A stretch of 31,815 bases of DNA from a virus. Location of the stretch: positions 1-31,815 of IMG/VR virus record IMGVR_UViG_3300042863_001004. The stretch is one strand, 5' to 3'. Positions 2 through 31,762 of this stretch are shown piece by piece. The notes under the pieces were generated by a model. The model made no database searches. It worked only from the letters and a program-made list of their open reading frames with translations, and was not told the origin of the DNA. Positions within the stretch are counted from its first letter, which is position 1. Each line of letters begins with the position of its first letter. The translations under genes and the position numbers were made by a program.

Positions 2-1372
2 CACATTGTTACTAAAACATTTAAACTTTTATTAGAAAATACAAAGGCTACTAAATTAGAATTAGTTTCAAGATTAGTTGGTGATAGAAATTTGCCAGCA
101 TATAGATCTACTTCAGCAGGATCTGCAATTGCAGATAGTGGTTTTGGTGTAAGATTAAATGATAGCGGAATTGCAGATACTGATAATAAAATTAGTTCAG
201 ATAATTATTATACATCTGAGGGTAAATATGATTTAGTACCAATTCAATATCAAAACATCGATGCAACATCAATAACATCATATGCATTATTAGCTGAAGC
301 ACCATATCAATCTGCACAAAGACGTGGACAATTTGTTTACTCTAGATTTATGGATATTGCTAATCAAAATCCATTATACGTGACGGAATCTTTATTGTCT
401 GGTGCACTTCCAAATTTAACAAATTATGAGTATCCTCTTAGTTATGCAACATTTCAAGGAACTGCTGCTGGAATTCAATTAATTGATCCAAATGGAAGTG
501 GTAATTCTGTTGATTTTATATGGACTGGAACATTCGGTAAAGGTGATACGGGTGTCACTGGAAATATATCTGGAGATTTTACTAAAGATAAAATAGATGT
601 ATGTAGTGTATCTACTATAGGTGCTGCAAATTATAATAATGGTTTATACATCCATAAGGATCATCCAGATTTACAAAACTTATATACAGATTTACAAAGT
701 ATTGCAACAAACGATGCTGCAGTTACTGATACTGAACAACGAAGTAACGTTCAGGCTATAGTAAATAATGCTATTTATACAATGCCTATTACTGCAACCT
801 ATGCAACTGGAACTTCATTTATATATAGCGGTATAAATAATTTAATCGGAAACTCATTTGCAGTTTCAGCGATTGATTCAATTCAGTCTACTAAACAATT
901 AGCATTCCAAAAAACATCTGGTTTAATTGCAGCTGGTGATAGAACATTTAAAATGTCTTTCGATGCAAATGATCAATATCTTTTAGGTGGTCGTTCTTGT
1001 GGAGCTTTCTTATTTTTATCGCCAATTAATTTAAACACATTAAGAGTAGAAGGTGATGCTAAACAAAGTAGAAAAGAAATTAAATCTGCAGTTGGTACAC
1101 TAGACACTTCTAAATCGCTTTCGGTTGACATCATGTTCCAATATAGAATGACTGATTATTTTGGTAATGATTCATCTAGTGATATTGGTAGAGTTGGAGG
1201 TCAAGCTAAATTAACATTCCCTAATTTAACATATACTAAGAAAATTGGATTAGACATATTTGATAAATACGATCAACAATTTTCGTTTGATATTGAAGTA
1301 TTTGCTAAGTACAGTCCAGCTGGTAAAAATCTAAATTCAATTAGAGCCGCTAAGTTGACTAGATTTGCCTAA
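2..1372 (+). CDS. Phage structural protein, C-terminal part (5' truncated by window edge)
   Basis: The reading frame is open from the first bases of the window, so the gene begins upstream; the TTG at 92 is not a convincing start. About 456 residues are visible. The sequence is rich in Ser, Asn, Gly and Thr with no transmembrane segment and no enzymatic motif. Its last ~90 residues alternate polar and hydrophobic residues as in a beta-rich domain (around SVDIMFQYRM and FSFDIEVFAKYSP). It lies directly upstream of giant tail/adhesin genes, so a virion role (sheath, tail or baseplate component) is likely. I do not recognise the family: a T4 gp18-type sheath was considered but no diagnostic motif was seen. 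The gap to the next gene is 66 bp and holds a promoter-like motif and a small hairpin. Confidence 0.6.
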   Translation, partial: HIVTKTFKLLLENTKATKLELVSRLVGDRNLPAYRSTSAGSAIADSGFGVRLNDSGIADTDNKISSDNYYTSEGKYDLVPIQYQNIDATSITSYALLAEAPYQSAQRRGQFVYSRFMDIANQNPLYVTESLLSGALPNLTNYEYPLSYATFQGTAAGIQLIDPNGSGNSVDFIWTGTFGKGDTGVTGNISGDFTKDKIDVCSVSTIGAANYNNGLYIHKDHPDLQNLYTDLQSIATNDAAVTDTEQRSNVQAIVNNAIYTMPITATYATGTSFIYSGINNLIGNSFAVSAIDSIQSTKQLAFQKTSGLIAAGDRTFKMSFDANDQYLLGGRSCGAFLFLSPINLNTLRVEGDAKQSRKEIKSAVGTLDTSKSLSVDIMFQYRMTDYFGNDSSSDIGRVGGQAKLTFPNLTYTKKIGLDIFDKYDQQFSFDIEVFAKYSPAGKNLNSIRAAKLTRFA

Positions 1373-1387
1373 TGCTAACTAATAAAT

Positions 1388-1400
1388 CTTAGATATATAA
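1388..1400 (+). promoter_or_regulatory. Promoter-like motif CTTAGATATATAA (copy 1 of 5)
   Basis: This intergenic AT-rich motif contains the decamer AGATATATAA (1391-1400), which recurs at four other gene boundaries in the window. It ends 38 bp before the ATG of the 2500-residue protein, nearly the same spacing as copies 3 and 4. It resembles the single -10-like box of T4 late promoters (TATAAATA) but is not identical. Function is inferred from recurrence and position. Confidence 0.45.
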
Positions 1401-1419
1401 CAGAGACAGGAACTCTGTT
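1399..1419 (+). other. Small intergenic hairpin
   Basis: AACAGAG (1399-1405) is a perfect complement of CTCTGTT (1413-1419), giving a 7-bp stem with a 7-nt loop, followed by a short T/A stretch. It could be a weak terminator for the upstream gene, an RNA processing site or a 5' stabilising hairpin in the leader of the next gene. It starts at the end of the promoter-like motif, so a leader hairpin is the better fit. Confidence 0.4.
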
Positions 1420-1438
1420 TAATAAAAGATTTATATAA

Positions 1439-4400
1439 ATGGCATCAATTTCAATTAAGACAATTCCATACGCAACTAGTGTTTTAGCATGTACTAATGG
1501 ACCTGCTGCGAGTGGCACCCTAACATTATATTATAATGACACTACATTTCCAACATTTGGAATAAATGTTATTTTATATACAGATATTGCCATGTTATTG
1601 GTATTTAATGGTGGTGATACTTGGTATTATAAAGCGATTGGTACAGAGACTATTCAAGTTGATAGCAATGGTAAAATAACTGATATGGCTGTATGTGCAG
1701 CGCCAACTCCAGTAGTTACTGCAACACCAATAGTTACTGCAACACCAATAGTTACTGCAACACCACTTCCACCAACAGCTACTGAAATTCCACCAACGGC
1801 TACACCAGTTCCTACTGTTGTACCGACGGCTACACCAATTCCACCAACGCCAAGTCCTACACCTGATAGTGTACCGATTGCGATAAGTGCTGCATATGGT
1901 GTTTCTTGGAATGGAACATTGACTATTACATTGACAGGTCTAGATGATCAGACTACTAATTTATTTTATACTATTGTTGACCAACCTACTAAAGGTACAT
2001 TGACTAGAGTCGGTGTTGCTGGTTCGGCAGTATATTCATATGTGCATACAGCATCTACAATTGGATCTGATTCATTCACATTTACAGTAAAAGATGGAAA
2101 TAATCAAACTTCTCCATCTGCTACTATAACAATTAATCCTGCAAATGCAGTTCCTGTGATCGTAAATCCGGGTACAATATATGTAACGCAAAATAGTTTT
2201 TCTAATTTTAATATATCTGTTACCGATTCAGACGGAGACACTGTAACTTTATCTACTATAACTAGTCCTATAAAAGGTGCTATAACAATAAATGGTCAAA
2301 CTGGAAATACCATAAGTGTAAAATATACACCTAATTTGGGTATATTTGGTAATGATAGTTGGACTATAAGAGCTACTGATTCAAAGGGTGGACAATCTGT
2401 ACCATTTACGGTTGCGTTTAGTATTATGTCAACGCCTAGGTTTCAGATGAATATTGGATCGTTTGGAAATGATCCAGATTCAATATGTTTTGCTGCTAAA
2501 AATAATTTAGCGTATGGTTCTACTTCTCAGGCAAATAACGTATCACAATTAGTAGCTCGTATTAATGAGGTACCTGCTACACCGGGTACACCTGCAATAC
2601 CTGCAATTCCAGGTGATTCTATTTATTACGATGAAAGTCTAGTTAACAAAGTGGTTCCAGCCAGTTCTATTATAAATTTAGTACCGGTGTCTGATAGCTC
2701 TGCATCTGTAATTTTAGGAATAGATCTTTCTGGTGAAATTATCAGCATTACTCCATGTGGTATTACGTCTACATCGTCTTCTGTAAATGTTAAGTATGCT
2801 ACAAATTCCAGAGATTATTGTTCGGGTGATTATCAATACGTAACGCTATGGTATGAAGGTAGTGTGTCTAAAACTTTAAGTGACTTAGTTAATTACGACA
2901 TACCTCTTTTTAGTAGCGAATATTATTCTAATTTATATACAAGTACAGGCAGTCAACTTGGTCAAATAGATAGCGGAATTTACAGTGCTTTAAATTCGAC
3001 CAGTGTTTACTATAAACGATCTACTACAAATACATGGGGTAAATCAAGACCCTCTTCAGATGATTTTGAATGGCTATGTGGTATATTACTTCCTAACGAG
3101 ACTTTTGAATTAACTTCTATTTATAAAACTAATTTATCAGATCCTACTATAAATCAGTTTTGTGCTGGAACTGCAAGTTCAACCTCTTTATTTTATGTTA
3201 GACAAGAAGGTATGCGACCGTTTAGTGGTTTATTGGAGCTAGCCAAATCAAATACACCTATTTATAAATCTAGTATTGGCGCTACGGTAGAAGATCCTGA
3301 TGATTTATTTGAATCTAATATATTTGAAGATAACACCGGATATTTAATTTGGGAAAATCTAGGTGATGGAGTTAATTTTAAATGGTACGGTTATAATAAT
3401 AATAAATTATTGGTATCAGGTGGTGCTATATCTACATATGGTGAGTGTGAAGATTACATCAAACCTGAAATAGTTACAAATGAGTTCATCACTAATGGAA
3501 ATATAGAAAATGTATTTTACGGATTTTATTCATGTACTCCTGAAATTGAAGGACCTCAAGCTGGTAATAATGTTGAGACTTTATTTTGGCCTATATACAT
3601 CATAGATGGATTGCATACTAATTATCCTGGAGATTCAGGTAGTTATATAAAAGATTTTGTAGATACTTTATCGTTTGGAAACGTCATATCTTCCAGCAGC
3701 TTCGATAGCTGTTTAGAATACAGCTTTAAAATTATTGCTGAAGACATTGATGAAGCTAAATCTTTATTGTTGGCTGCAATTGCAGAAGAAACACAAGCGC
3801 TGTATGTCGCAAATTTAATACCTTCACCAGTTCCACAAAAGCGCCCAGTTGTTTCAAGTGGAACGCAAATTGGTTTAGGAAGTGAAGCTATTATACAAGT
3901 ATACGGAGATACAAAACCATGTATTTCTAATGTTACTGGTTTAGTATTAGAAACTTATACGTTTCCATTAATAGCTGATTATGAAACTATTAAAGCGGGT
4001 CCTAATTTTAGGACTCAAACTAATTATCAATTAGATAATGTTACAAAACCATTATTGAGAACTAATCCAAAATTATCGGGTAATATTAAAATTGTTACAA
4101 GTTCAAATGGTTCTGTTTATTTAGAAAGTATTAATGCTTCTAAAGAATTGGCCGCTATAAAATATAAAAAGAATGTAGTTAATCCTAATGGTAACTATGC
4201 AAATGATGTTGCGAATTTCTTTAAAAATACTGGAACACCTTCTGATTTGATTTATTTAACAAAAAGATCTGAATCTGATTTAACAGTATTAGGTTCTTAT
4301 GATAAACAAATAGAAGAGGAATACCAATATGGTACAACATATAATTATTCTAAAAACTATGATGAAAATTATAGAATTTTTGCACCTATATGGGCTGACA

Positions 4401-7400: not shown

Positions 7401-8941
7401 GTGAAAATGGATTATTTGGAGAAGTATTAATGGACATTTATCCGGAAACTCCTGGTAATACAATGTATAAATTTTCAATTTATTCAATTCAAGATACTAA
7501 CACTATGTTTGTTGTTTCAAAGCCAGTTAATGTTAATGATCCAAATGATATATTAGATGTTACATATTTGCCTAATTATACTCAAAGAAAAATTAAGTAT
7601 TATTACACAAATGGAGGTGGTCATATTCACAAGACTCTTTTAGAGAAAATATCTATAAACAAGGTTGCTGATATGATTAATTTAAATGATGATAGTGTTA
7701 CATATACTACAGTTGAAGAAGATGGAACTGTAAATAATAATAGATTTACTGTCAACTTCGATGATGGTAATGAAATAATTAAATACGCAACTATTTCTAT
7801 TGAGGAAGATAACGATAAACCTAAAAGTTATAAATTATTTAAAGGTATTATTGGTTATAATCTTGTTAGATCTGATGAGGCGTCATACTATCCATTCTTA
7901 GTTAGACATAATGGTGCATACACTGTTGATTTTACACCAGTGATAACATTTACCGATATGTACACTCATTTTAAATCTAATAGAATTCAGGCGAGTGCAG
8001 ATCAAAGAGAAACTGGATTAGAGCCTATATTATATAGGCATTCGTTAACTGATGGATATGAATTAACTACGGCTAAATCATATTATGAAAGATATAATAG
8101 ATGCGGTACTGCATTTAATGTAGGATTTATACAAGATGATGGTACGCATGATAAATATTTCGGTGTTATTAAAAACCATTTTTATCACAAGGTTAATGAA
8201 ATAAATCCAACTGGTATTACAAAGCTTTCGGAGTCATCTGATAAACTTCCGTTGTACCCATTAATTGATGAAGTTGCTATTTCTAAAAAAGATGTAAACG
8301 TATTTAGATCTTCATGGGATGCTGGTTATTATACAAGAGCTTTTTCTGGTGGAAAATCAGAAGACATTCCTGGAACATTAGATAACACTGAAGAAAGATC
8401 TTATCTTGCATCTACAGTAATGAAGGTTAAAGATAATTACGATCTTATTTCGTTTAAATATCAGTCTATAAATAGCAAAGAAAAGTTAGATGAAATATTA
8501 AGTAACTCTATAAATGAGGCAGAAGTGTTAATGTTCGAAGATGAGAATGAAATTGTTGCTGATTTTTATATTACTGATATTACTACTAGATTATTAAAAG
8601 AAGACGGAGTATTAACTGGAATTCAAAACTATGTAAGTGTTCAAAATTCAGCAGGTGATAAAACAACATTGTCTGATGATGCTGATTTTTATATAAGTAA
8701 AAATATCATCGAACAGTTTGTTGTTGATTCTGTAAAACTGTACACTAAAAGATTCAAAGGGGCTGCATCAAGTATAGTTAGTTCTAATGATATTAATTTA
8801 ATTGGTGATGGAGGATTTTCCCCTGATAATAATTTCACTTATAAACCTCATAAGCAAACGCCTATGAATTTTAGGTTGATATATAATAAAAGATTAGGAT
8901 ATTCTTACGACATTAAACCTATGATAAAAATAAAGTCATAA
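1439..8941 (+). CDS. Giant 2500-aa virion/adhesion protein with Pro/Thr stalk and cadherin/Ig-like repeats
   Basis: Residues 1-87 form a small N-terminal domain. Residues ~88-143 are a Pro/Thr stalk built of VTATP and PTATP units. Residues ~145-330 hold two tandem beta-sandwich repeats of the cadherin/VCBS kind seen in large adhesins, each ending with a SFTFTVKD- or SWTIRATD-like strand. The remaining ~2170 residues are polar, beta-rich and unrecognised, with a notable RTNPKLSGNIKI segment near residue 872. No signal peptide or membrane segment is seen. The length, and its place between a structural protein and fibre genes, suggest a tail, baseplate or fibre component with surface-exposed receptor-binding modules near its start. 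The ATG at 1439 follows an A-rich leader without Shine-Dalgarno. Its stop lies one base before the next start, so the two genes are probably co-expressed. The exact role is unknown. Confidence 0.7.
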   Translation: MASISIKTIPYATSVLACTNGPAASGTLTLYYNDTTFPTFGINVILYTDIAMLLVFNGGDTWYYKAIGTETIQVDSNGKITDMAVCAAPTPVVTATPIVTATPIVTATPLPPTATEIPPTATPVPTVVPTATPIPPTPSPTPDSVPIAISAAYGVSWNGTLTITLTGLDDQTTNLFYTIVDQPTKGTLTRVGVAGSAVYSYVHTASTIGSDSFTFTVKDGNNQTSPSATITINPANAVPVIVNPGTIYVTQNSFSNFNISVTDSDGDTVTLSTITSPIKGAITINGQTGNTISVKYTPNLGIFGNDSWTIRATDSKGGQSVPFTVAFSIMSTPRFQMNIGSFGNDPDSICFAAKNNLAYGSTSQANNVSQLVARINEVPATPGTPAIPAIPGDSIYYDESLVNKVVPASSIINLVPVSDSSASVILGIDLSGEIISITPCGITSTSSSVNVKYATNSRDYCSGDYQYVTLWYEGSVSKTLSDLVNYDIPLFSSEYYSNLYTSTGSQLGQIDSGIYSALNSTSVYYKRSTTNTWGKSRPSSDDFEWLCGILLPNETFELTSIYKTNLSDPTINQFCAGTASSTSLFYVRQEGMRPFSGLLELAKSNTPIYKSSIGATVEDPDDLFESNIFEDNTGYLIWENLGDGVNFKWYGYNNNKLLVSGGAISTYGECEDYIKPEIVTNEFITNGNIENVFYGFYSCTPEIEGPQAGNNVETLFWPIYIIDGLHTNYPGDSGSYIKDFVDTLSFGNVISSSSFDSCLEYSFKIIAEDIDEAKSLLLAAIAEETQALYVANLIPSPVPQKRPVVSSGTQIGLGSEAIIQVYGDTKPCISNVTGLVLETYTFPLIADYETIKAGPNFRTQTNYQLDNVTKPLLRTNPKLSGNIKIVTSSNGSVYLESINASKELAAIKYKKNVVNPNGNYANDVANFFKNTGTPSDLIYLTKRSESDLTVLGSYDKQIEEEYQYGTTYNYSKNYDENYRIFAPIWADNNMPDNFVIFKVKNPTGIDAATVSTDNVSRIQEILKNAEIVKTFDLSKKSDLGKYIRNHVQQETFPKAPITVSFGKNDMTSFNGIDIKSGELTSKGEYIYKDYVEADKPLIEANDFITDGFRRNGMLCANLLNLEFLFDDESSSDYSVNRYFGLYVDAIDSGIGEINSIDNNIIKFSNVTSYVDANNPITAIPSHKQMSTSPTLGYVSINDIYYKISNSGLYDPKQLEVKIDDTTGNIPSTIGISNTGRSVDLIKTDERGYDFVKMSIIDVPDSSDAIAVVSSREESYKFTFVKHTPGENISINIEDSTGPYQFTFTTGSTFNLTILNMLNAWNNFTFLNNPTNPILELNIDAVKKSFVITEIKTNLGDLNMYVSGAISSIIRVDQIQTNINIQNRTYSANYTLPKGTYSGKFFSSQGKLGDIASALASAIHADDSALDAFNIGSDIWIKSRIPGYKLLQYTVLVNKSNVIDFVKVNNRDTDNILKLRDGANTVLFKWDAYYLTGGNSTGKSIFINNTTISEISIGDYLETRHANEFNRVLDIVEDITVPNSTRSKLIMQLKSDTPDGEARVFNENIVKIGLFSAYDIYDMNFDFYDTSNSDLKELDYETRTNLNYEPYENAIAKIDPITGEFNTKLDANDIFDDSFALDPINYFSNLSEILSEETVVEIAGQNITSEFDRLKENELKEFAINSRVVPNINKWVLKDSLTVRDQPYYLNTNEAFGRTNFSPDLGATKRNRNDMTHEWFYMDKKPKYLRYDELNDTFSYVNFIEDFELTADLFKSTKNNYFDKFMITEGFEKNLDANDITSIYNKFGEFTRSYLNPDDVNNTFFKTNLKKKYTLIDGGDTSAFASTIFKGLKVVLKNRKEFTEKVALDFVPTSEFNGYKFSILLKTNTDVKTNSVDFEVIQNKKFKFVIFFINLNISDYWIKGNMNRKLLYELNHKIVYDHTIEDYNYANTSFSGALSWNTADFTGSTPFVVEGINHFDGSVPNFENDILIGENGLFGEVLMDIYPETPGNTMYKFSIYSIQDTNTMFVVSKPVNVNDPNDILDVTYLPNYTQRKIKYYYTNGGGHIHKTLLEKISINKVADMINLNDDSVTYTTVEEDGTVNNNRFTVNFDDGNEIIKYATISIEEDNDKPKSYKLFKGIIGYNLVRSDEASYYPFLVRHNGAYTVDFTPVITFTDMYTHFKSNRIQASADQRETGLEPILYRHSLTDGYELTTAKSYYERYNRCGTAFNVGFIQDDGTHDKYFGVIKNHFYHKVNEINPTGITKLSESSDKLPLYPLIDEVAISKKDVNVFRSSWDAGYYTRAFSGGKSEDIPGTLDNTEERSYLASTVMKVKDNYDLISFKYQSINSKEKLDEILSNSINEAEVLMFEDENEIVADFYITDITTRLLKEDGVLTGIQNYVSVQNSAGDKTTLSDDADFYISKNIIEQFVVDSVKLYTKRFKGAASSIVSSNDINLIGDGGFSPDNNFTYKPHKQTPMNFRLIYNKRLGYSYDIKPMIKIKS
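1713..1765 (+). repeat. Three 18-bp tandem repeats coding VTATPI units
   Basis: The unit TAGTTACTGCAACACCA plus one spacer base occurs three times in a row with no base changes in the 17-base core. It encodes consecutive VVTATP/IVTATP hexapeptides at the start of the Pro/Thr stalk. Identity at the DNA level suggests recent slippage expansion rather than selection on the protein alone. Confidence 0.85.
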
Positions 8942-8942
8942 A

Positions 8943-10586
8943 ATGGCAATTAACATTCAAGAGATATTACACCCAAGCGATTCGGACTCTATAAAGTTTG
9001 AGAAAATCAATTATAACTTTGATCAAATTTTAGCGAATGGTGGTGGGCCAATTGGACCAAAAGGTCAAAAAGGTGATCAAGGTCTACAAGGAACTACTGG
9101 TCAAAAAGGTCAAAAAGGTGAAACAGGACCTATTGGTTTAAAAGGTGTTTCCGGAGCTACTGATAGTCCATGGTACAAAGTTAATGTCGATACAAATAAT
9201 GATGGTCAAAATGAAGTTAGTATTTTAAAACCTAAAATTGGATCAGATTCAAATATGCCTATTATTTGGTTAGGTGATGATGATTTTGTTGAAGATGTAA
9301 CTGATGGTGATATTTCTACTAATGCTAGATTATCAATTGCCAAAGATACTACCTTTGAAAATTATATTAAATTATATCATGCTATCGATAAAGCGCTTGT
9401 AATGACAAGTAATGCTGATGGTATATTTTCTAAATTTAATTGGCAAAATGCATTTGGTAGTTCAAATATAGAGTTTGGAGCTACTACAGATAAAATTACA
9501 TTCCTAGCAAATAATTATGCATTTTCAGCCAGTGGTGTTGGAATGAATTTAAAGTCAATTGGTAATACAAATATCAAACTCAGTAGCACTGGTTTTGGAA
9601 TTTTAGATGTAGACATGAATGCTGAATTTAAGGGTTATTTAAGATTGCCTGCTGGTACTACAGGTCAAAGACCTTCTGTACCTCAATTAGGCATGATTAG
9701 ATTTAATACCGATTTAGATATTGTTGAAGCTTATTATAATAATGGTGGAACTCCTGAATGGAGAGAATTATGTACTGATTGTGGAACACCTGTTGGTGAC
9801 AGCATCGGTATTTCGGGTGGAGATATAAATGCTAATGCTGATGGATCTCCAGCAACTGATACAATTGAAATTACAGGTGGAGATATAAATGCTAATGCTG
9901 ATGGATCACCATATTCTGCAGTAAGCGCAACATTAAGTGCAGTTGGATCTACTTCACTTACAGCAACTTATAATATTCCAACAACGCTGTATTTAAATTA
10001 TACAATTGCACCTACATCATCTGATCCAGGATCTTCTAACGTATTTGTTAATACTCCTGGATTAACTATCACTCCTGAACCTTCTAGTAATAGAATAAAA
10101 GTTGTGACAAGCGTTGATGTTGTTGGTAAAACTTGGAACGTAACAGTTAAACATCCGTTAGATTCGAATGTTATGGTAGTTTGGAATATATCATTAGTAA
10201 GTGCTGCAACGCCAACTGCAACACCAGTTGTGCCAACTGCTACACCAGTTCCAGCTCCGACTGCAACCCCTATCCCAGCTGCAACTGCAACAATAACTAA
10301 TGTGGTACATGTTGTTGATGATACTGCTAGCGTTGTTTTCAACTTAAGTGATACTGTTAATTGCTCGGCAGTTACAGTTCAATATGGTTCTAATCCAACT
10401 GGACCGTGGACAGGTGCTACATCGGGATGTTCATCACCTCGTTCAGTAAATATTTTTGGTGCATGTGGTAATACATATTACTTTAGAGTTGTTGAAACTA
10501 GAAGTGGTTTAACTGATGTTATATCTAATGTATATCAATTCACATATCCAGATTGCGGTGGAGGTGGAGGTGGATCACCTTCATAA
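8943..10586 (+). CDS. Collagen-like tail fibre protein
   Basis: The N-terminus (EILHPSDSDSIKFEKINYNF) looks like a virion-anchoring segment. Residues ~35-70 are a Gly-X-Y collagen-like tract (GPIGPKGQKGDQG and similar). Residues ~70-270 form a beta-rich region ending in a phage-fibre type strand (IRFNTDLDIVEAYYNNGG). Next come a duplicated 20-residue unit, an Ig-like region, a PTATP stalk (residues ~422-450), a fibronectin-III-like domain with paired cysteines (residues ~452-535) and a Gly-rich tail (CGGGGGG). This build is typical of trimeric phage fibres that bind host surface polymers. It is flanked by two other genes with the same stalk type, which suggests a set of alternative or co-assembled adhesins. 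The start is one base after the preceding stop. Confidence 0.8.
   Translation: MAINIQEILHPSDSDSIKFEKINYNFDQILANGGGPIGPKGQKGDQGLQGTTGQKGQKGETGPIGLKGVSGATDSPWYKVNVDTNNDGQNEVSILKPKIGSDSNMPIIWLGDDDFVEDVTDGDISTNARLSIAKDTTFENYIKLYHAIDKALVMTSNADGIFSKFNWQNAFGSSNIEFGATTDKITFLANNYAFSASGVGMNLKSIGNTNIKLSSTGFGILDVDMNAEFKGYLRLPAGTTGQRPSVPQLGMIRFNTDLDIVEAYYNNGGTPEWRELCTDCGTPVGDSIGISGGDINANADGSPATDTIEITGGDINANADGSPYSAVSATLSAVGSTSLTATYNIPTTLYLNYTIAPTSSDPGSSNVFVNTPGLTITPEPSSNRIKVVTSVDVVGKTWNVTVKHPLDSNVMVVWNISLVSAATPTATPVVPTATPVPAPTATPIPAATATITNVVHVVDDTASVVFNLSDTVNCSAVTVQYGSNPTGPWTGATSGCSSPRSVNIFGACGNTYYFRVVETRSGLTDVISNVYQFTYPDCGGGGGGSPS
9816..9910 (+). repeat. 60-bp period duplication in the fibre gene
   Basis: The 35-bp segments 9816-9850 and 9876-9910 are identical except for one base near the end (TCTCC versus TCACC), giving a 60-bp period. 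They encode two copies of GGDINANADGSP, each preceded by a similar I-x-I-[ST]-G strand. The 20-residue unit may be a short beta-repeat or linker that can expand or contract. Confidence 0.85.
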
Positions 10587-26156: not shown

Positions 26157-27722
26157 ATGGAAACAGGAATGTCATTTAACGAATTCATTAACGAAAGAAA
26201 TATTACCATTAAAAGGCAATATACTCAAAATCACCCAGCTAAAACCGTAGGTAAAGCTGCTAAGATTAGAAATAAAGTATTAGAAGCTATTAAAGATGGT
26301 AAACTTACTAAAGAAGAATTCGACACAATTTTAAGGGAAATGACAACTGATTCCACTAGATGGATGAGAAGAAATTCAAGCTATATTACAATGAATGAAG
26401 AAGGTATTTCACTTTCTAAAATGGGTAAAAGAATCTTAAGCCAAATTTCGGTTAACGAAGAGATCAATGAGAAAGCTACTCCATTTAAAATTGCAAATGT
26501 AATGGCAGAAGAGATATTTGGAGAATTTGGTATTGCTACATTAAGCTATGATCAAATTGAAAGAATCATCGATATTAAAAAAGCTGATGCACTGTCAAAG
26601 AAATACGGAGAAAATAGCTTTATGGCTTTATCAGAATTAGATATGGAAGAACTTCTTAACAAGAATAAAAACTTAATAAAAGAAAATAAAACAAATAATA
26701 TGAAAACAAATTTTATTCATGAATCATTCAAAGGATTCGTTAATGCTTTGAATGAAGCAAATGTTAATGAGTCATTTGCATCGATGCAGTTGTCAAACTT
26801 ATTCACTAGAGATGGCGGTAAACTTGATCAAGCTCTAGTTAAAGGATTCTATAACGCTACTAAAGTTAAATTAGATTTAGTACAAGATGAAGATCTATTA
26901 ACAATGGATGCTAATACGGCATACAAAAATAAACAATCGGACACTATTATATTTTATATCTCTGATACACCTAAAGAAAATCCTTATGCACCAGCAGATG
27001 CATATAGTTCTGCAAAGAATATTCCAGGTGAAGGTTACTTATTAGCTGTAGCTTCAGGTGATAATAAATTCTATGACAATGCATGGTCTAAATATGCTAA
27101 AGACAGAAGTTTTAAGCAAGTAGATAATAATCCAAGTGATTCAATAGGTATCGGTAAAAGATATTCTGGATGGGATGCTACAGGATTATATAATGTAAAA
27201 AGAATTTCAGAAGTTGCTGACAGAGCGGTTGTAATTAATGTTGCATTGCTTAAACAAAAATATTCTTCTGAAAACGAAAGAGCAGAAAGAAGAGCAGCTA
27301 GATCAGGTGCAACAGCATTTAAATCTGATAAAGATTTTAAAACTGAAAACCAGAACAGATACCACCAAATCTTAGCTCAAAAAGCCGCAGCAATGCCATT
27401 AGATAGTATTGTAGCAGAAGCTATTGAAAAAATAAGCAATCAAATTAAAGATGCTTTATCAAAAGGTGAAAAAGGAAAATACGGAGAAATCTTAATAGGT
27501 ACTAGTTCAAAAGGAAGAGAATGTAAAATGTCAGATGCTGCATACCACATGAAAAACATCTTAGATGAATATCAAAGATATGTTGGTTATGTTCAACAAG
27601 AAGCAGACAGTCTTGCTAGATATGGTTCATCAGAATCATGGTACAAAAAAGAAGTAGAAAATTACGCAAAAAGTGTTAAAGACAAAGTTGACCAAATCGA
27701 GTCAATGTCTTATGCATGGTAA
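26157..27722 (+). CDS. Two-part protein of unknown function with capsid-targeting-like motifs and internal start
   Basis: The N-terminus METGMSFNEFINE matches the capsid-targeting-like pattern. Residues 1-95 are basic and helical with WMRRNSSYITMNEEGISLSKMG, and a possible processing site lies near 97-105 (SVNEEINEK). Residues ~105-180 form a second helical module. At Met182 (26700) a new start-like segment follows an A-rich stretch (AAAATAAAACAAATAAT) just like the intergenic leaders here. It begins MKTNFIHESFKGFVNALNEA, again with the leader motif. The last ~310 residues are a soluble alpha/beta domain (DTIIFYISDTP, GEGYLLAVASG, RSGATAFKSDKDF) that I do not recognise. The gene looks like a fusion of two genes, or one that also makes the shorter product from 26700. 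It is 8 bp after the previous gene. Confidence 0.6.
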   Translation: METGMSFNEFINERNITIKRQYTQNHPAKTVGKAAKIRNKVLEAIKDGKLTKEEFDTILREMTTDSTRWMRRNSSYITMNEEGISLSKMGKRILSQISVNEEINEKATPFKIANVMAEEIFGEFGIATLSYDQIERIIDIKKADALSKKYGENSFMALSELDMEELLNKNKNLIKENKTNNMKTNFIHESFKGFVNALNEANVNESFASMQLSNLFTRDGGKLDQALVKGFYNATKVKLDLVQDEDLLTMDANTAYKNKQSDTIIFYISDTPKENPYAPADAYSSAKNIPGEGYLLAVASGDNKFYDNAWSKYAKDRSFKQVDNNPSDSIGIGKRYSGWDATGLYNVKRISEVADRAVVINVALLKQKYSSENERAERRAARSGATAFKSDKDFKTENQNRYHQILAQKAAAMPLDSIVAEAIEKISNQIKDALSKGEKGKYGEILIGTSSKGRECKMSDAAYHMKNILDEYQRYVGYVQQEADSLARYGSSESWYKKEVENYAKSVKDKVDQIESMSYAW

Positions 27723-29151: not shown

Positions 29152-30585
29152 ATGAAATTAGTAGACGCTTTAAGACAAGAAGACATTTTAACAGAAAATG
29201 GCATGGCCACAAACTCAAGCTCATTAAATGCTTGTGTAGATTTATTCTTTAACATTGGTGCAATGAGAGGCCAAGACAAACAACGTTTGATCGCAACCTT
29301 TTCGAAAGCGTTCAATGAAGATCCTAAACGTGCAATGAAATTGTTATTTTGGGCACGTGATGTTAGAGGTGGTGCAGGTGAACGTCAAGTTTTCAAAGAC
29401 ATCTTGGTTTACTTAGCTGAGAATCATGACTTGGTATTAAGACCAAACTTACACTTGATTTCAGAGTACGGTCGTTGGGATGACTTGTTAGTTCTTACAG
29501 GAACTTACTTAGAGAAAGAAGCATTTACATTAATCTCAGATGCAATCATCGCAGAAAACGGTTTATGTGCTAAGTGGATGCCACGTAAAGGTGCAGTAGC
29601 TGAGAAGTTACGTAAATTCACAGGCATGTCACCTAAACAATATCGTAAATCATTAGTTGGTTTGACAAGTGTTGTTGAAACTAAAATGTGTGCTAAAGAT
29701 TGGGACTCTATTGAATTTGGTAAATTGCCATCAGTAGCCAGTGCACGATACCAAAAAGCATTTGGTAAAAATGCATACGAAAGTTATTCAGCTTACATCG
29801 CTTCTTTAGTGAAAGGTGAAGCTAAGATCAATGCAGGTGCAGTGTATCCATATGATGTGATTAAGTCATTGACTCATGGAAATGCAACAGTTGCTAACGA
29901 GCAATGGAAAGCTTTACCAAACTACATGGAAGGTGCAAACGATATGATTTTACCAGTCGTGGATGTTTCAGGTTCTATGTCGTCTGCCGCAGGAAACAGT
30001 AAAACTGTAACTTGTATGGATGTTGCAATCTCTTTAGGTCTTTATATTTCTGAAAGAAATGAAGGTCCTTTCAAAGATGCTTTCGTAACATTCTCAGATA
30101 ATCCAAAATTACAAGTAGTTTCTGGATCTTTAGCTGACAGATATGCACAAATGTCAACAGCTGACTGGGGAATGAGTACAAACTTAGAAGCTACATTTAA
30201 ATTGATTTTAGATCAAGCTACTAAGCACAAGTTATCTCAAGACGAGATGCCAAATAAAATCTTAATCTTATCAGATATGGAATTTAATTCGGCAACATGT
30301 TCTAGAGGTTATGGAAGTAATAGAAAAGATGCTTGGAATCCTACAGCTCAACAAATGATTGAGAACATGTACGATGTAGCAGGTTACACAATGCCTCAAA
30401 TAGTTTATTGGAATATTCAATCCAGAAATGGTGGTGTACCAGTAGCATTTGACAAAGCAGGAACTGCATTAGTTTCAGGTTTCTCACCAGCAATTATGAC
30501 AAGTTTACTTGGAGGTGATATTGAGTCACCACAACAAATAATGGATAAAACAATCTTGAGCGAGAGATACGCTCCAATTGTTTAG
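29152..30585 (+). CDS. Ro60-like TROVE/von Willebrand A RNA-binding protein
   Basis: Residues ~1-250 carry the helical-repeat signature of phage and bacterial TROVE (Ro/vault) proteins: TENGMATNSSSLNACVDLFF, the turn WARDVRGGAGERQVF, ISEYGRWDDLLVL, CAKWMPRKG and VETKMCAKDWD, then AGAVYPYDVIK. Residues ~265-450 are a von Willebrand A domain with an intact MIDAS (Asp271-x-Ser-Gly-Ser in VVDVSGSM, a later MSTNLEATF threonine and LILSDMEF). Ro60 forms a ring that binds misfolded RNA ends and Y RNAs and takes part in RNA quality control and decay. The next ~390 bp hold a candidate structured RNA and then a CCA-enzyme-like gene. Arg codons change at the domain boundary: 9 CGN and 4 AGA before it, 0 and 6 after it (counted by eye). 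Confidence 0.86.
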   Translation: MKLVDALRQEDILTENGMATNSSSLNACVDLFFNIGAMRGQDKQRLIATFSKAFNEDPKRAMKLLFWARDVRGGAGERQVFKDILVYLAENHDLVLRPNLHLISEYGRWDDLLVLTGTYLEKEAFTLISDAIIAENGLCAKWMPRKGAVAEKLRKFTGMSPKQYRKSLVGLTSVVETKMCAKDWDSIEFGKLPSVASARYQKAFGKNAYESYSAYIASLVKGEAKINAGAVYPYDVIKSLTHGNATVANEQWKALPNYMEGANDMILPVVDVSGSMSSAAGNSKTVTCMDVAISLGLYISERNEGPFKDAFVTFSDNPKLQVVSGSLADRYAQMSTADWGMSTNLEATFKLILDQATKHKLSQDEMPNKILILSDMEFNSATCSRGYGSNRKDAWNPTAQQMIENMYDVAGYTMPQIVYWNIQSRNGGVPVAFDKAGTALVSGFSPAIMTSLLGGDIESPQQIMDKTILSERYAPIV

Positions 30586-30595
30586 ATATATAAAG
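30581..30595 (+). promoter_or_regulatory. Promoter-like motif TTTAGATATATAAAG (copy 5 of 5)
   Basis: The AGATATATAA decamer (30584-30593) overlaps the stop codon of the TROVE gene and directly precedes the candidate structured RNA. With no protein gene following for over 400 bp, a promoter here would serve the RNA itself. The overlap with the stop codon constrains part of the match. Confidence 0.4.
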
Positions 30596-30979
30596 AAATT
30601 GGGTTCCTTACAGCAACATATACAAACCTCAATTTTAAACAACGGAAAACAAGGAACCAGGTGGATAGGTACAGCAAAAAGTACAAACACAGCTATGATA
30701 GAGTCTAGATAAAAACGTGGAGTTTAAACTGGTTCGCTACTTTAAACAGTGAAGCGCTAGACAAGGTGAAGGTTAACACTAGAAAATGGATCACAAGTCA
30801 TACCACCCCAATAGGTGCAATTAGGATGTAGTCGAATAACAGTAGACTCTCGCGAAAGCAAAGCCGAAGACTATAAAGAGGGTTATTCTGCCGAGAAGAA
30901 AATCACGAACAACTATCCCGTATTAGATTAGAATCCTGGTAAAAATTGTTAATAACTTTTTTAGCCAGGATTTTTTTTT
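30594..30979 (+). ncRNA. Candidate structured RNA between TROVE and CCA-enzyme genes
   Basis: There is no reading frame longer than about 12 codons from an ATG. GC is about 40% (e.g. 38, 40, 40 and 45% in the four 60-bp lines from 30661 to 30900), above the surrounding genes. Perfect complementary arms include 30602-30609/30651-30658 (8 bp), 30703-30708/30757-30762 (6 bp) enclosing 30722-30728/30741-30747 (7 bp), and 30834-30840/30882-30888 (7 bp) stacked near 30848-30851/30878-30881. A GC-GAAA-GC tetraloop lies at 30852-30859. GGTGG (30660) can pair with CCACC (30803) to close a multi-branched domain. A promoter-like motif precedes it and a hairpin-plus-T-run terminator ends it. Position next to a Ro-like gene suggests a Y-RNA-like partner. 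No known RNA family was recognised. Confidence 0.6.
30932..30979 (+). terminator. Terminator with long AT-extended stem
   Basis: AATCCTGG (30932-30939) pairs with CCAGGATT (30965-30972), and the stem continues with AAAAA (30941-30945) against the T run at 30957-30962. Nine T's (30971-30979) follow the GC-containing arm. It ends the TROVE/RNA unit just upstream of the next promoter, whose TTGTCAA box begins in the same T run. Confidence 0.8.
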
Positions 30980-31017
30980 GTCAATTATTATTCGTATATT
31001 AGCTCTATAATTAAAAA
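30978..31017 (+). promoter_or_regulatory. Promoter of the CCA-enzyme-like gene
   Basis: TTGTCAA (30978-30984), GTATATTAGC (30994-31003) and TATAATTAAAAA (31006-31017) repeat the element at 28474-28512 with identical spacing and 34 of 39 bases shared. The ATG of the next gene is 10 bp downstream of the A tract. Here the upstream TTTTG box of the first copy is replaced by the terminator T run. Confidence 0.65.
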
Positions 31018-31027
31018 CAAACAAATT

Positions 31028-31762
31028 ATGCCACAGATATTTAAAGTAGGAGGTTGCATTAGAGATAAGTTTCTCGGAGTCGACTCAAAGGACATAGATT
31101 TCACATTCGTCTTGGACGATTTAAGTGGAACAGTAGAAGATGGTTTTAAAATCATGACAGATTGGATGACTGAAAGAGGATTTGAAATCTTCTTAAGTAC
31201 TCCAGATTGTTTTACGATTAGAGCTAAGTTTCCAAAAGATCACCAATTTACTGGACTTGTTGCAGATTTTGTAATGGCAAGAAAAGAAGTTGGTTACACT
31301 GAAGGAACTCGTAGACCAATCTTAGAACTTGGAACTCTTGAAGACGATTTACTTCGTCGAGATTTCACAGTCAATGCTTTAGCAGAAGATATTGATGGAA
31401 ACCTTATTGACCTTTTTGGTGGTATTGAGGATTTAAAGGTTGGTATTTTAAGAACTCCAATGGATGCGATGGTTACGATGATGGACGACCCATTAAGAAT
31501 CTTAAGAGCCTTAAGATTTACGATCACGAAGGATTTTGTAATGAGTGATGATATTTGGGAAGCAATGAAACAACCAAACATCTTAAAGAAACTTGAACAA
31601 ACAGTAAGTAGTCAAAGAATTAGAGAGGAAATCGACAAGATGATGAGATTTAATACCACTAGAAGTTTTAGACTCTTAATGGATGTTGATGAGATTATTC
31701 CAGGATTTTTAGAATTAATCTTCAAAGATGGAATGTGGTTAATGCCAACTTTTAAAAAATAA
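31028..31762 (+). CDS. cca: Short CCA-adding enzyme/poly(A) polymerase-like nucleotidyltransferase
   Basis: The class II tRNA nucleotidyltransferase signature is clear: KVGGCIRD (8-13), the catalytic Asp22-x-Asp24 in DSKDIDFTF, a third acidic strand VADFVMARKE, the RRDFTVNALAED motif (110-121), IDLFGGIEDLKVGILRTP and DPLRILRALRF (154-164). Class II enzymes of this kind add CCA to tRNA 3' ends or A tails to RNA. At 244 residues it is much shorter than bacterial enzymes (~400), keeping the head and neck but little body or tail, so substrate choice may differ. No tRNA gene is visible in the window. It follows the candidate RNA and TROVE gene under its own promoter, and a further gene starts 4 bp after its stop. 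Confidence 0.88.
   Translation: MPQIFKVGGCIRDKFLGVDSKDIDFTFVLDDLSGTVEDGFKIMTDWMTERGFEIFLSTPDCFTIRAKFPKDHQFTGLVADFVMARKEVGYTEGTRRPILELGTLEDDLLRRDFTVNALAEDIDGNLIDLFGGIEDLKVGILRTPMDAMVTMMDDPLRILRALRFTITKDFVMSDDIWEAMKQPNILKKLEQTVSSQRIREEIDKMMRFNTTRSFRLLMDVDEIIPGFLELIFKDGMWLMPTFKK

Follow-up and report, generated by a model that had tools for sequence, protein, structure and literature searches.

The window analysed here, a 31,815-nucleotide (nt) stretch of viral DNA (IMG/VR record IMGVR_UViG_3300042863_001004, positions 1 to 31,815), carries near its end (29152–31762) a gene for a Ro60-like protein, a structured non-coding RNA and a gene for a CCA-type enzyme (Table 1). A sequence-only reading of this DNA had proposed that the phage encodes a Ro60-like protein with its own neighbouring structured RNA, and that proposal has held up: the RNA is kept beside the gene and its structure is supported by covariation. 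The two open reading frames (ORFs), of 477 and 244 amino acids, were confirmed, as was the gene-free gap claimed between them, which has no ORF of 60 or more amino acids; the longest ATG-initiated ORF within the RNA spans 12 amino acids in the window and 3–52 across 32 sequences. The GC content is raised as claimed (37.3% at 30594–30979 and 40.1% at 30600–30923, against 31.9% for the window), although 54 of 629 windows of the same size match or exceed 37.3%.

The 477-amino-acid protein matches DUF2828 and DUF7788 in Pfam and phrog_850 ('RNA-binding protein') in PHROG. Both Pfam domains occur in all 19 diverse members compared, 4 of which also match vWA_Ro60 (best E = 0.0046); the Pfam TROVE family, PF05731, matched none of the 19 at E ≤ 10. 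Residues D271, S273, S275, T343 and D375, assigned to the metal-ion-dependent adhesion site (MIDAS) of vWA domains, are invariant in the 19-sequence alignment. An AlphaFold2 model aligned with ten Ro60 or Trove structures at VIA Z scores of 15.0–18.9 (381–401 residues; root-mean-square deviation 4.1–5.3), among them, with 387–401 residues aligned, 9kop ('Trove domain', 18.9), the Ro autoantigen with RNAs 1yvp (17.6), the Ro60 of Thermus phage phiLo 9l5y (17.2) and the Rsr structure 2nvo (16.3); the first structure containing only a vWA domain ranked below all Ro60 and Trove entries, at 12.2. We predict that the protein has the Ro60 fold, a helical-repeat ring joined to a vWA domain. The fold is matched and PF05731 is not, and we therefore file it as a Ro60-fold protein of a DUF2828/DUF7788 branch rather than as a member of PF05731. 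Of the description 'TROVE/VWA gene with intact MIDAS', the MIDAS and, as a prediction, the fold survive, and the TROVE assignment in the Pfam sense does not. Ro60 came up in the fold search and not in a sequence search of the PDB with the protein; the 50 matches listed by Foldseek include no classical Ro60. Among the closest known systems is the phiLo protein (9l5y, titled as phage-encoded, and 9kop; Z 17.2–18.9), with which sequence identity is only 16–18% and for whose structure we found no paper in the literature searched. The vertebrate Ro60–Y RNA particle has the same protein fold, including the RNA-bound structures 1yvp and 2i91; Rfam gives no Y RNA match in the window.

Genes of this branch occur in 681 of 50,697 phage records. 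In one relative (L223) an insert at 8275–9211 splits the Ro60-like gene; it matches no Rfam family at threshold and carries, on the opposite strand, a 275-amino-acid ORF (8397–9224) that by eye resembles a homing endonuclease.

A structured RNA beside the gene

A blastn search with 30586–30990 found the RNA downstream of the Ro60-like gene in most near relatives, and this, made without the family profile, is the independent first detection. The profile (nhmmer, E < 1e-3), built from the same family, matched 49 of the 50 nearest protein loci (protein-fetched loci being the best 80 matches per query protein, Ro60-like or CCA-type). Two of these matches, in L021 and L039, are partial and lie at contig ends; in the sole exception, L041, the contig ends inside the Ro60-like gene. 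Farther out, the profile matched 25 of the 79 loci that a later protein scan supplied, none of the next 30 protein loci (57–64% identical proteins) and none of 16 named phages.

The linkage also appears when the search starts from the RNA. A degenerate pattern for the RNA only, run over 2.9 million viral contigs, returned 59 stretches; 56 have a Ro60-like gene upstream on the same strand, ending 19–666 nt before the RNA, two more (L179 and L180) are cut-outs from contigs known to carry such a gene, and the last (L222) retains only 322 nt of contig on the gene side. None of the 59 is shown without the gene. Thirteen of these contigs had not been seen by the protein search, and 12 of the 13 show a Ro60-like gene or part of one. 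Encoding beside a Ro60 gene, the arrangement expected of a Y RNA, was thus found for 49 of 50 protein loci and 58 of 59 RNA stretches. An exact 27-base probe for the RNA, which was too strict, had no match in the viral contigs.

An ORF of 106–121 amino acids stands between gene and RNA at 16 of the nearest 50 loci (several of the 16 near-identical), which makes the RNA a separable unit. The RNA could instead be a leader, riboswitch or attenuator of the gene that follows it, here the CCA-type gene, given its position ahead of a gene and the terminator at its end; as the ORF after the RNA differs among relatives, we consider this highly improbable. At gathering scores, Rfam has no match in the window, nor in eight relatives over the region of the RNA; below threshold, the window gives weak matches, the best at E = 0.23. 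A likeness to a group I intron or RNase P, seen by eye, found no Rfam support. On this sequence evidence, 30600–30979 is a real structured RNA that stays with the Ro60-like gene; it consists of about 320 nt plus the terminator and is apparently undescribed and absent from Rfam 15. In the literature searched on phage Ro60, TROVE and Y RNAs we found no report of the RNA or of the CAGCAA motif described below. One contig with both gene and RNA (L182) also encodes a transfer-messenger RNA (1142–1591, minus strand; 75.4 bits) and four transfer RNAs (tRNAs).

Table 1 Features of the region under study, in window coordinates
Feature	Position	Strand	Basis
Ro60-fold protein gene, 477 amino acids; DUF2828 + DUF7788/vWA, phrog_850, MIDAS intact (fold predicted)	29152..30585	+	domain search, alignment, model
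Conserved structured non-coding RNA with a terminal T-run; unmatched in Rfam	30600..30979	+	blastn, profile, pattern scan
P1 hairpin, GGTTCC 30602-30607 / GGAACC 30653-30658; first CAGCAA module	30602..30658	+	covariation
Motif copy 1, TTACAGCAAC	30608..30617	+	alignment
P2 enclosing helix, GGATAG 30663-30668 / CTATCC 30913-30918; second CAGCAA module	30663..30918	+	covariation
Motif copy 2, GTACAGCAAAA	30669..30679	+	alignment
P5 variable hairpin, GTCTAG/CTAGAC	30703..30762	+	folds of many, not all, homologues
Putative pseudoknot 1: P6 GTG 30766-30768 / CAC 30777-30779; P7 GGTT 30771-30774 / GATC 30789-30792	30766..30792	+	P7 counted, P6 by inspection only
Putative pseudoknot 2: P8 AGTC 30796-30799 / GACT 30869-30872; P9 ACCC 30805-30808 / GGGT 30880-30883	30796..30883	+	covariation
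P10 hairpin, GTC/GAC, in a domain that some relatives lack	30831..30847	+	covariation
P13 hairpin, TTCT/AGAA; top-ranked covarying pair in the alignment	30886..30897	+	covariation
Intrinsic-terminator-like hairpin and T-run	30932..30979	+	sequence, homologues
Short CCA/poly(A)-polymerase-head gene, phrog_24229; recurrent, not constant neighbour	31028..31762	+	domain search, neighbourhoods

The sequence-only reading had pointed to perfect complementary arms in the gap. From a single sequence these are not above chance (fold of the RNA region, z = −0.93, with 15 of 100 shuffles equally good and no folding signal); comparison of homologues established the structure. We used an alignment of 31 sequences made by sequence alone, for which 41 RNA sequences were thinned to 31 (<96% identity), with L190 added and L216, which has the same RNA as L223, left out because its core was too different to align. 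In an all-against-all covariation scan with our own tree-based null (30 sequences, 297 columns), the top four pairs are helix pairs, belonging to P13 (E = 0, that is, <0.025), P2 (0.025), P8 (0.4) and P1 (1.1); two of the four reach E ≤ 0.025, and the pairs ranked after them are not helix pairs. Over six helices, 96.7% of 851 cells are paired. Double-sided changes number 83; shuffles give 24.4, with none of 500 reaching the observed count, and slid controls no more than 18. In this comparison relatedness alone can exceed shuffles, and the misalignment of divergent rows by one or two columns lowered the helix counts. One measure, the number of further pair types, did not exceed that of shuffles (352 of 500). 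The covariation check suggested with the sequence-only reading was run and, like that of conservation beside the gene, came out in its favour.

Helix P7 could be anchored by sequence in 21 of the 23 sequences carrying the P8 anchor. It is 98% paired and shows 22 double-sided changes; none of 500 shuffles was as high, and slid versions were at most 68% paired. It joins the P6 loop to downstream sequence, and P9 joins the interior of P8 to sequence beyond P8. Together these pairings support two putative H-type pseudoknots, both within P2, in which P6 is placed by inspection. P8 reads AGTC/GACT, CGTC/GACG, CATC/GATG or CACC/GGTG among relatives, and P9 reads ACCC/GGGT or TCTC/GAGA. The P10 domain is absent from L046, L047 and L182, and P1 is absent from L045. 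P5 was not counted because the alignment is too loose there. Two candidate helices were set aside: P4 (TGAY/GTCA), which is 89.5% paired with only 2 double-sided changes and was dropped because its 3′ strand pairs better as P8, and P12 (GGT/GCC), which pairs no better than shuffles (176 of 500).

The claim that the RNA has its own terminator can be read directly from the sequence, as a hairpin at 30932–30972 followed by a T-run; hairpins of other sequence with T-runs occupy this position in homologues. A simple terminator scan did not list the hairpin, probably because its loop exceeds the limit of the tool. Parts of the terminator hairpin (30932–30979) recur in L097 (5383–5431), L116 and L120–L123, in the manner of a shared cassette.

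CAGCAA hairpins beside phage Ro60-like genes

Directly after the 5′ strand of both P1 and P2, the window RNA carries nnACAGCAA. The same core is enriched beside distant Ro60-like genes. Within 2.5 kilobases (kb) on each side of the gene in 16 named phages, intergenic CAGCAA occurs 33 times in the sense orientation, against 3.3 expected, and 4 times antisense, against 3.1; it is present in 13 of these phages and lacking in Aeromonas AsFcp_2, Serratia BF and Acinetobacter ME3. At 27 further loci, some of them closely related, there are 24 sense copies near the gene (2.4 expected) and 4 antisense (1.8), with 0 farther away (1.9); 17 of the 27 carry the motif. When these 43 loci outside the window lineage are pooled, CAGCAA ranks first of 3,668 hexamers, being present at 30 loci against 4.1 expected and at 3 in antisense. 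Without 10 loci from metagenome-assembled genomes (MAGs) and four near-duplicates, it is found at 23 of 29. Other words enriched beside the gene are TTGACA, which we take to be a promoter word, and GGTTCG/GTTCGA, presumably from tRNA T-arms.

A held-out set of 51 loci on new contigs, with motif and distance set beforehand, gave 44 sense copies against 2.7 expected and 0 antisense; 29 of the 51 loci carry the motif (2.6 expected). Counting identical stretches once leaves 37 copies (2.5 expected) and 25 of 43 loci. These counts indicate that, in phages infecting several host phyla, CAGCAA is a mark of Ro60-like genes.

As a rule the motif occupies a hairpin loop, towards its 5′ side, and the hairpins are often in tandem. 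Closing stems beat dinucleotide shuffles (p ≤ 0.05) at 28 of 44 sites nearest the gene, chosen by hand (27 of the 33 in named phages and 17 of the 24 at further loci). The hairpin of Listeria phage LMTA-34, AGGAAUC-UAACAGCAAUU...GAUUCCU-GU, resembles that of relatives of the window, AGGAUCG-GUACAGCAAA...CGAUCCU-GU. In six whole phage genomes (620 kb), all from the set that first revealed the motif, 20 of 40 matches to motif plus stem lie within 2 kb of the gene and on its strand, against 1.1 expected. Both the stem and the genome-clustering statistics are overstated, as they count sites that are related or in tandem as independent. Control hexamers with equally good stems occur 0–12 times per genome and CAGCAA 4–12 times; motif plus stem is thus not rare in itself, and the evidence is its clustering beside the gene.

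Three phages show particular arrangements. Aeromonas phage LAh_9 has five tandem CAGCAA hairpins just upstream of its Ro60-like gene (L166 2000–2365), the last of which reads GGUUCCUUACAGCAAC and resembles P1 of the window RNA. In Vibrio phage KVP40 (L162 2457–2495), the Ro60-like gene has both its start codon and its ribosome-binding site covered by the hairpin ACAUU-UUACAGCAA-...-AAUGU, which is possibly autoregulatory and has a stem that is not beyond shuffles (p = 0.15). In Citrobacter phage Ci1 (L163 4352–4466), a 115-nt tRNA match has an insert that holds CTACAGCAA, and is perhaps a tRNA/Y RNA hybrid.

The KVP40 and LAh_9 hairpins, together with the start of the window RNA 17 nt past the stop codon, speak for a cis-acting explanation. 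On this view, autoregulation would come from binding of the Ro60-like protein, or of another factor, to its own messenger RNA (mRNA) or operon, and the downstream RNA would be a structured 3′ untranslated region. The window lineage fits this poorly, as its RNA lies downstream, has its own terminator and is set apart from the gene by the intervening ORF at the 16 loci noted above. Elsewhere the hairpins stand among tRNA genes 0.35–1 kb from the gene (Alf5) or border YrlA-like modules (L176 and L168, below). We judge this explanation unlikely.

Comparison with Ro60–Y RNA particles

Bacterial Ro60 (Rsr) and its YrlA Y RNAs (RF02553) share with the window a Ro60-fold protein and an RNA encoded alongside. 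They differ in the protein, which in the window belongs to the DUF2828/DUF7788 branch and not to PF05731, and in the RNA, in which CAGCAA hairpins replace the element G[G/A]AACUACAG and two putative pseudoknots replace the tRNA-like module. A permissive Rfam scan of ten loci (E ≤ 0.5) gave three YrlA matches at two phage loci, one from a mycobacteriophage and one from a Klebsiella phage: L176 4022–4130 (39.3 bits, E = 4e-5), L168 4209–4324 (36.4 bits, 2.6e-4) and L168 4359–4461 (34.3 bits, 1.1e-3). Each is situated at a CAGCAA site (L176 4007; L168 4210 and 4346). By eye, these modules follow the order T-arm, acceptor-like hairpin, D-arm; ahead of the L176 module, about ten positions of the model are without counterpart. 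The five bacterial YrlA loci inspected share G[G/A]AACUACAG, that is, GGAACUACAG or GAAACUACAG, which we take to be the Ro-binding element of YrlA. The phage handle shares only UACAG with this element and is therefore distinct from it. Six loci of the best bacterial YrlA matches (L246–L251) have 14 copies of CAGCAA on both strands, against about 7.5 by composition, and in L250 one copy ends up 10 nt past the YrlA match. The particle would work like Ro60–Y RNA; by the tests run, the window RNA is not a YrlA. Locus L264 (NVXB01000001.1, binned as Hyphomicrobiales) carries a phage-type Ro60-like gene and, about 3.8 kb from it, a weak YrlA match (E = 1.3e-7) that may be a tRNA instead.

ROOL and GOLLD are large structured phage-encoded RNAs; the window RNA is smaller, has no Rfam match to either and is tied to a Ro60-like gene. 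Its complex pseudoknotted architecture could nonetheless be that of an independent ornate RNA of this kind sharing the operon, with CAGCAA recognised by something else. A ROOL-like RNA does lie about 1 kb upstream of the Ro60-like gene in Listeria phage LMTA-34 (L173 964–1515; 88.5 bits, E = 2e-16, just under the gathering score). We nevertheless think an independent RNA very unlikely, as no copy among the 59 RNA stretches is shown without the gene and CAGCAA marks Ro60-like genes across phages of several host phyla.

Published transcription data come from Listeria phage CKA15. A 2025 study of that phage reports high transcription from three non-coding regions located up to 2 kb from an Rsr-like gene, CKA15_055, and non-coding regions near the gene yield most of the phage transcripts; the authors propose Y RNAs among other explanations, and the protein was detected in purified particles (PMC12282133). 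CKA15 thus resembles the window in pairing an Rsr-like protein with nearby abundant non-coding RNAs proposed as Y RNAs; no CAGCAA motif or RNA structure is reported in the parts of the article available to us. We located three CAGCAA sites 169–327 nt ahead of CKA15_055, and place the ROOL-like RNA at about 26195–26746 of CKA15. It coincides with the top region, so published RNA sequencing may already show ROOL expression in a lytic phage. TROVE proteins have been listed as platforms for RNA repair that a small subset of jumbo phages possess (PMC7824862), a TROVE-domain gene is among the early genes of crAss001 (PMC8375218), and several phages are said, with reference to a review, to have YrlA (PMC7765460).

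Because the RNA travels with the gene and its hairpin signal stands beside distant Ro60-like genes, it is probably the RNA that the phage Ro60-like protein binds. We consider it likely that the phage encodes a ribonucleoprotein of the Ro60/Y-RNA type. The CAGCAA hairpins would be the docking sites of the protein, and the RNA would serve, like a Y RNA, as both scaffold and gate on the protein ring. In place of the tRNA-like module it would have the double-pseudoknot domain within P2, which might recruit or mimic something else, such as a nuclease or a host or phage RNA-handling enzyme. Such a particle could sort or stabilise damaged RNA, or feed it to decay, during infection.

Several observations weigh against this reading of the locus. 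Both the binding and the expression of the RNA in the window phage are what we infer. The protein model is of modest confidence (mean predicted local distance difference test score, 76), and Foldseek by itself gave three matches at E ≤ 0.001, namely 9kop and two chains of 9l5y. The motif is absent from 13 of the 43 pooled loci, including 7 of the 10 MAG loci, and from 22 of the 51 held-out loci, some of which are contig ends; in some phages, such as KVP40, it could be a cis-regulatory mRNA element. All three phage YrlA matches fall under the gathering score of 69, and the closing stem is beyond shuffles at one of the three sites (p = 0.02 at L168 4346, 0.50 at L176 4007 and 0.87 at L168 4210). 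RF02553 gives weak matches in 112 of 299 bacterial genomes, 3 of them over the cut-off, and in L246–L251 CAGCAA is never inside the YrlA match on its strand. The window itself has no RF02553 match, and its RNA is without a tRNA-like module. By coordinate mapping against the CKA15 article, in the parts available, the strongest region (26236–26727) coincides with the ROOL-like RNA and not with the CAGCAA sites.

A broader form of the Ro60/Y-RNA reading seems to us somewhat favoured, with less confidence than the particle itself: phages of many bacterial phyla would share a docking code, a stem followed by nnACAGCAA, through which Ro60-like proteins pick out dedicated RNAs and to which lineage-specific effector domains (tRNA mimics, tandem hairpins or the double pseudoknot) are attached, giving a modular phage-wide Ro ribonucleoprotein (Ro-RNP) that is coupled in at least two lineages to a CCA-type enzyme. 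Ro60-like genes of the DUF2828/DUF7788 branch are common in phages, yet we found no report naming the bound RNA; the shared hairpin motif reduces the question of binding to changing six bases. If the reading is true, Ro-RNPs would be widespread phage tools and not occasional borrowings, Rfam 15 would lack a class of structured RNA, and Y RNA function could be viewed in a setting where the handle is conserved while the attached domain is exchanged.

The CCA-type gene

The short nucleotidyltransferase claimed in the sequence-only reading is there: the 244-amino-acid protein matches the PolyA_pol head domain PF01743 (E = 1.8e-18) and phrog_24229 (E = 1.1e-59). Its proposed role as third member of the system fared less evenly. 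Among 20 contigs that have both genes, it is the next gene in 6, from two lineages, and lies 3.2–141 kb away in the other 14 (nine, plus L045 at 3.2 kb and four distances of about 10–34 kb derived by hand); L212, with a weak CCA-type match of 30% identity 5.0 kb from the gene, is not among the 20. Two of the adjacent cases are near-identical relatives of the window, with a gap of 453 nt (446–453 in the window lineage). The other four (L137, L138, L140 and L142; gaps of 359–378 nt) belong to a distant lineage with 62–63% identity to the window in the Ro60-like protein and 57% in the CCA-type protein. In this second clade (82–100% identical), 10 loci have a right flank of 1.1 kb or more, and the CCA-type gene is adjacent in 4 of them.

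The second-lineage gaps hold a structured-looking RNA of their own (L137 3624–4000, L138 3642–4000, L140 3643–4000 and L142 3643–4000), which ends in AGGAAGG-YUACAGCAAUCUU...CCUUCCU-GAA and a terminator. It has no match to the window-type profile and cannot be aligned to the window RNA. The CCA-type enzyme is no fixed part of the locus, yet the order Ro60-like gene, RNA, CCA-type gene recurs with unrelated RNAs between.

This recurrence, in which both of the mutually unalignable RNAs bear CAGCAA and a terminator, is what speaks for a three-part system of Ro60-like protein, RNA and CCA-type enzyme, the last tailing or repairing the 3′ ends of the RNAs that are held. Such a system would extend the Ro60/Y-RNA reading and does not exclude it; as the sequence-only reading suggested, it might perhaps counter RNA-cutting defences. 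With the two genes apart in most of the 20 contigs and in more than half of the second-clade loci with sufficient flank, and with the window-type RNA profile matching only 2 of the 80 loci fetched with the CCA-type protein, we hold it to be a minority possibility, doubtful on present counts. At the start of contig L082, a 63-nt terminator match stands just before a CCA-type gene, which is probably one more near-identical case of adjacency.

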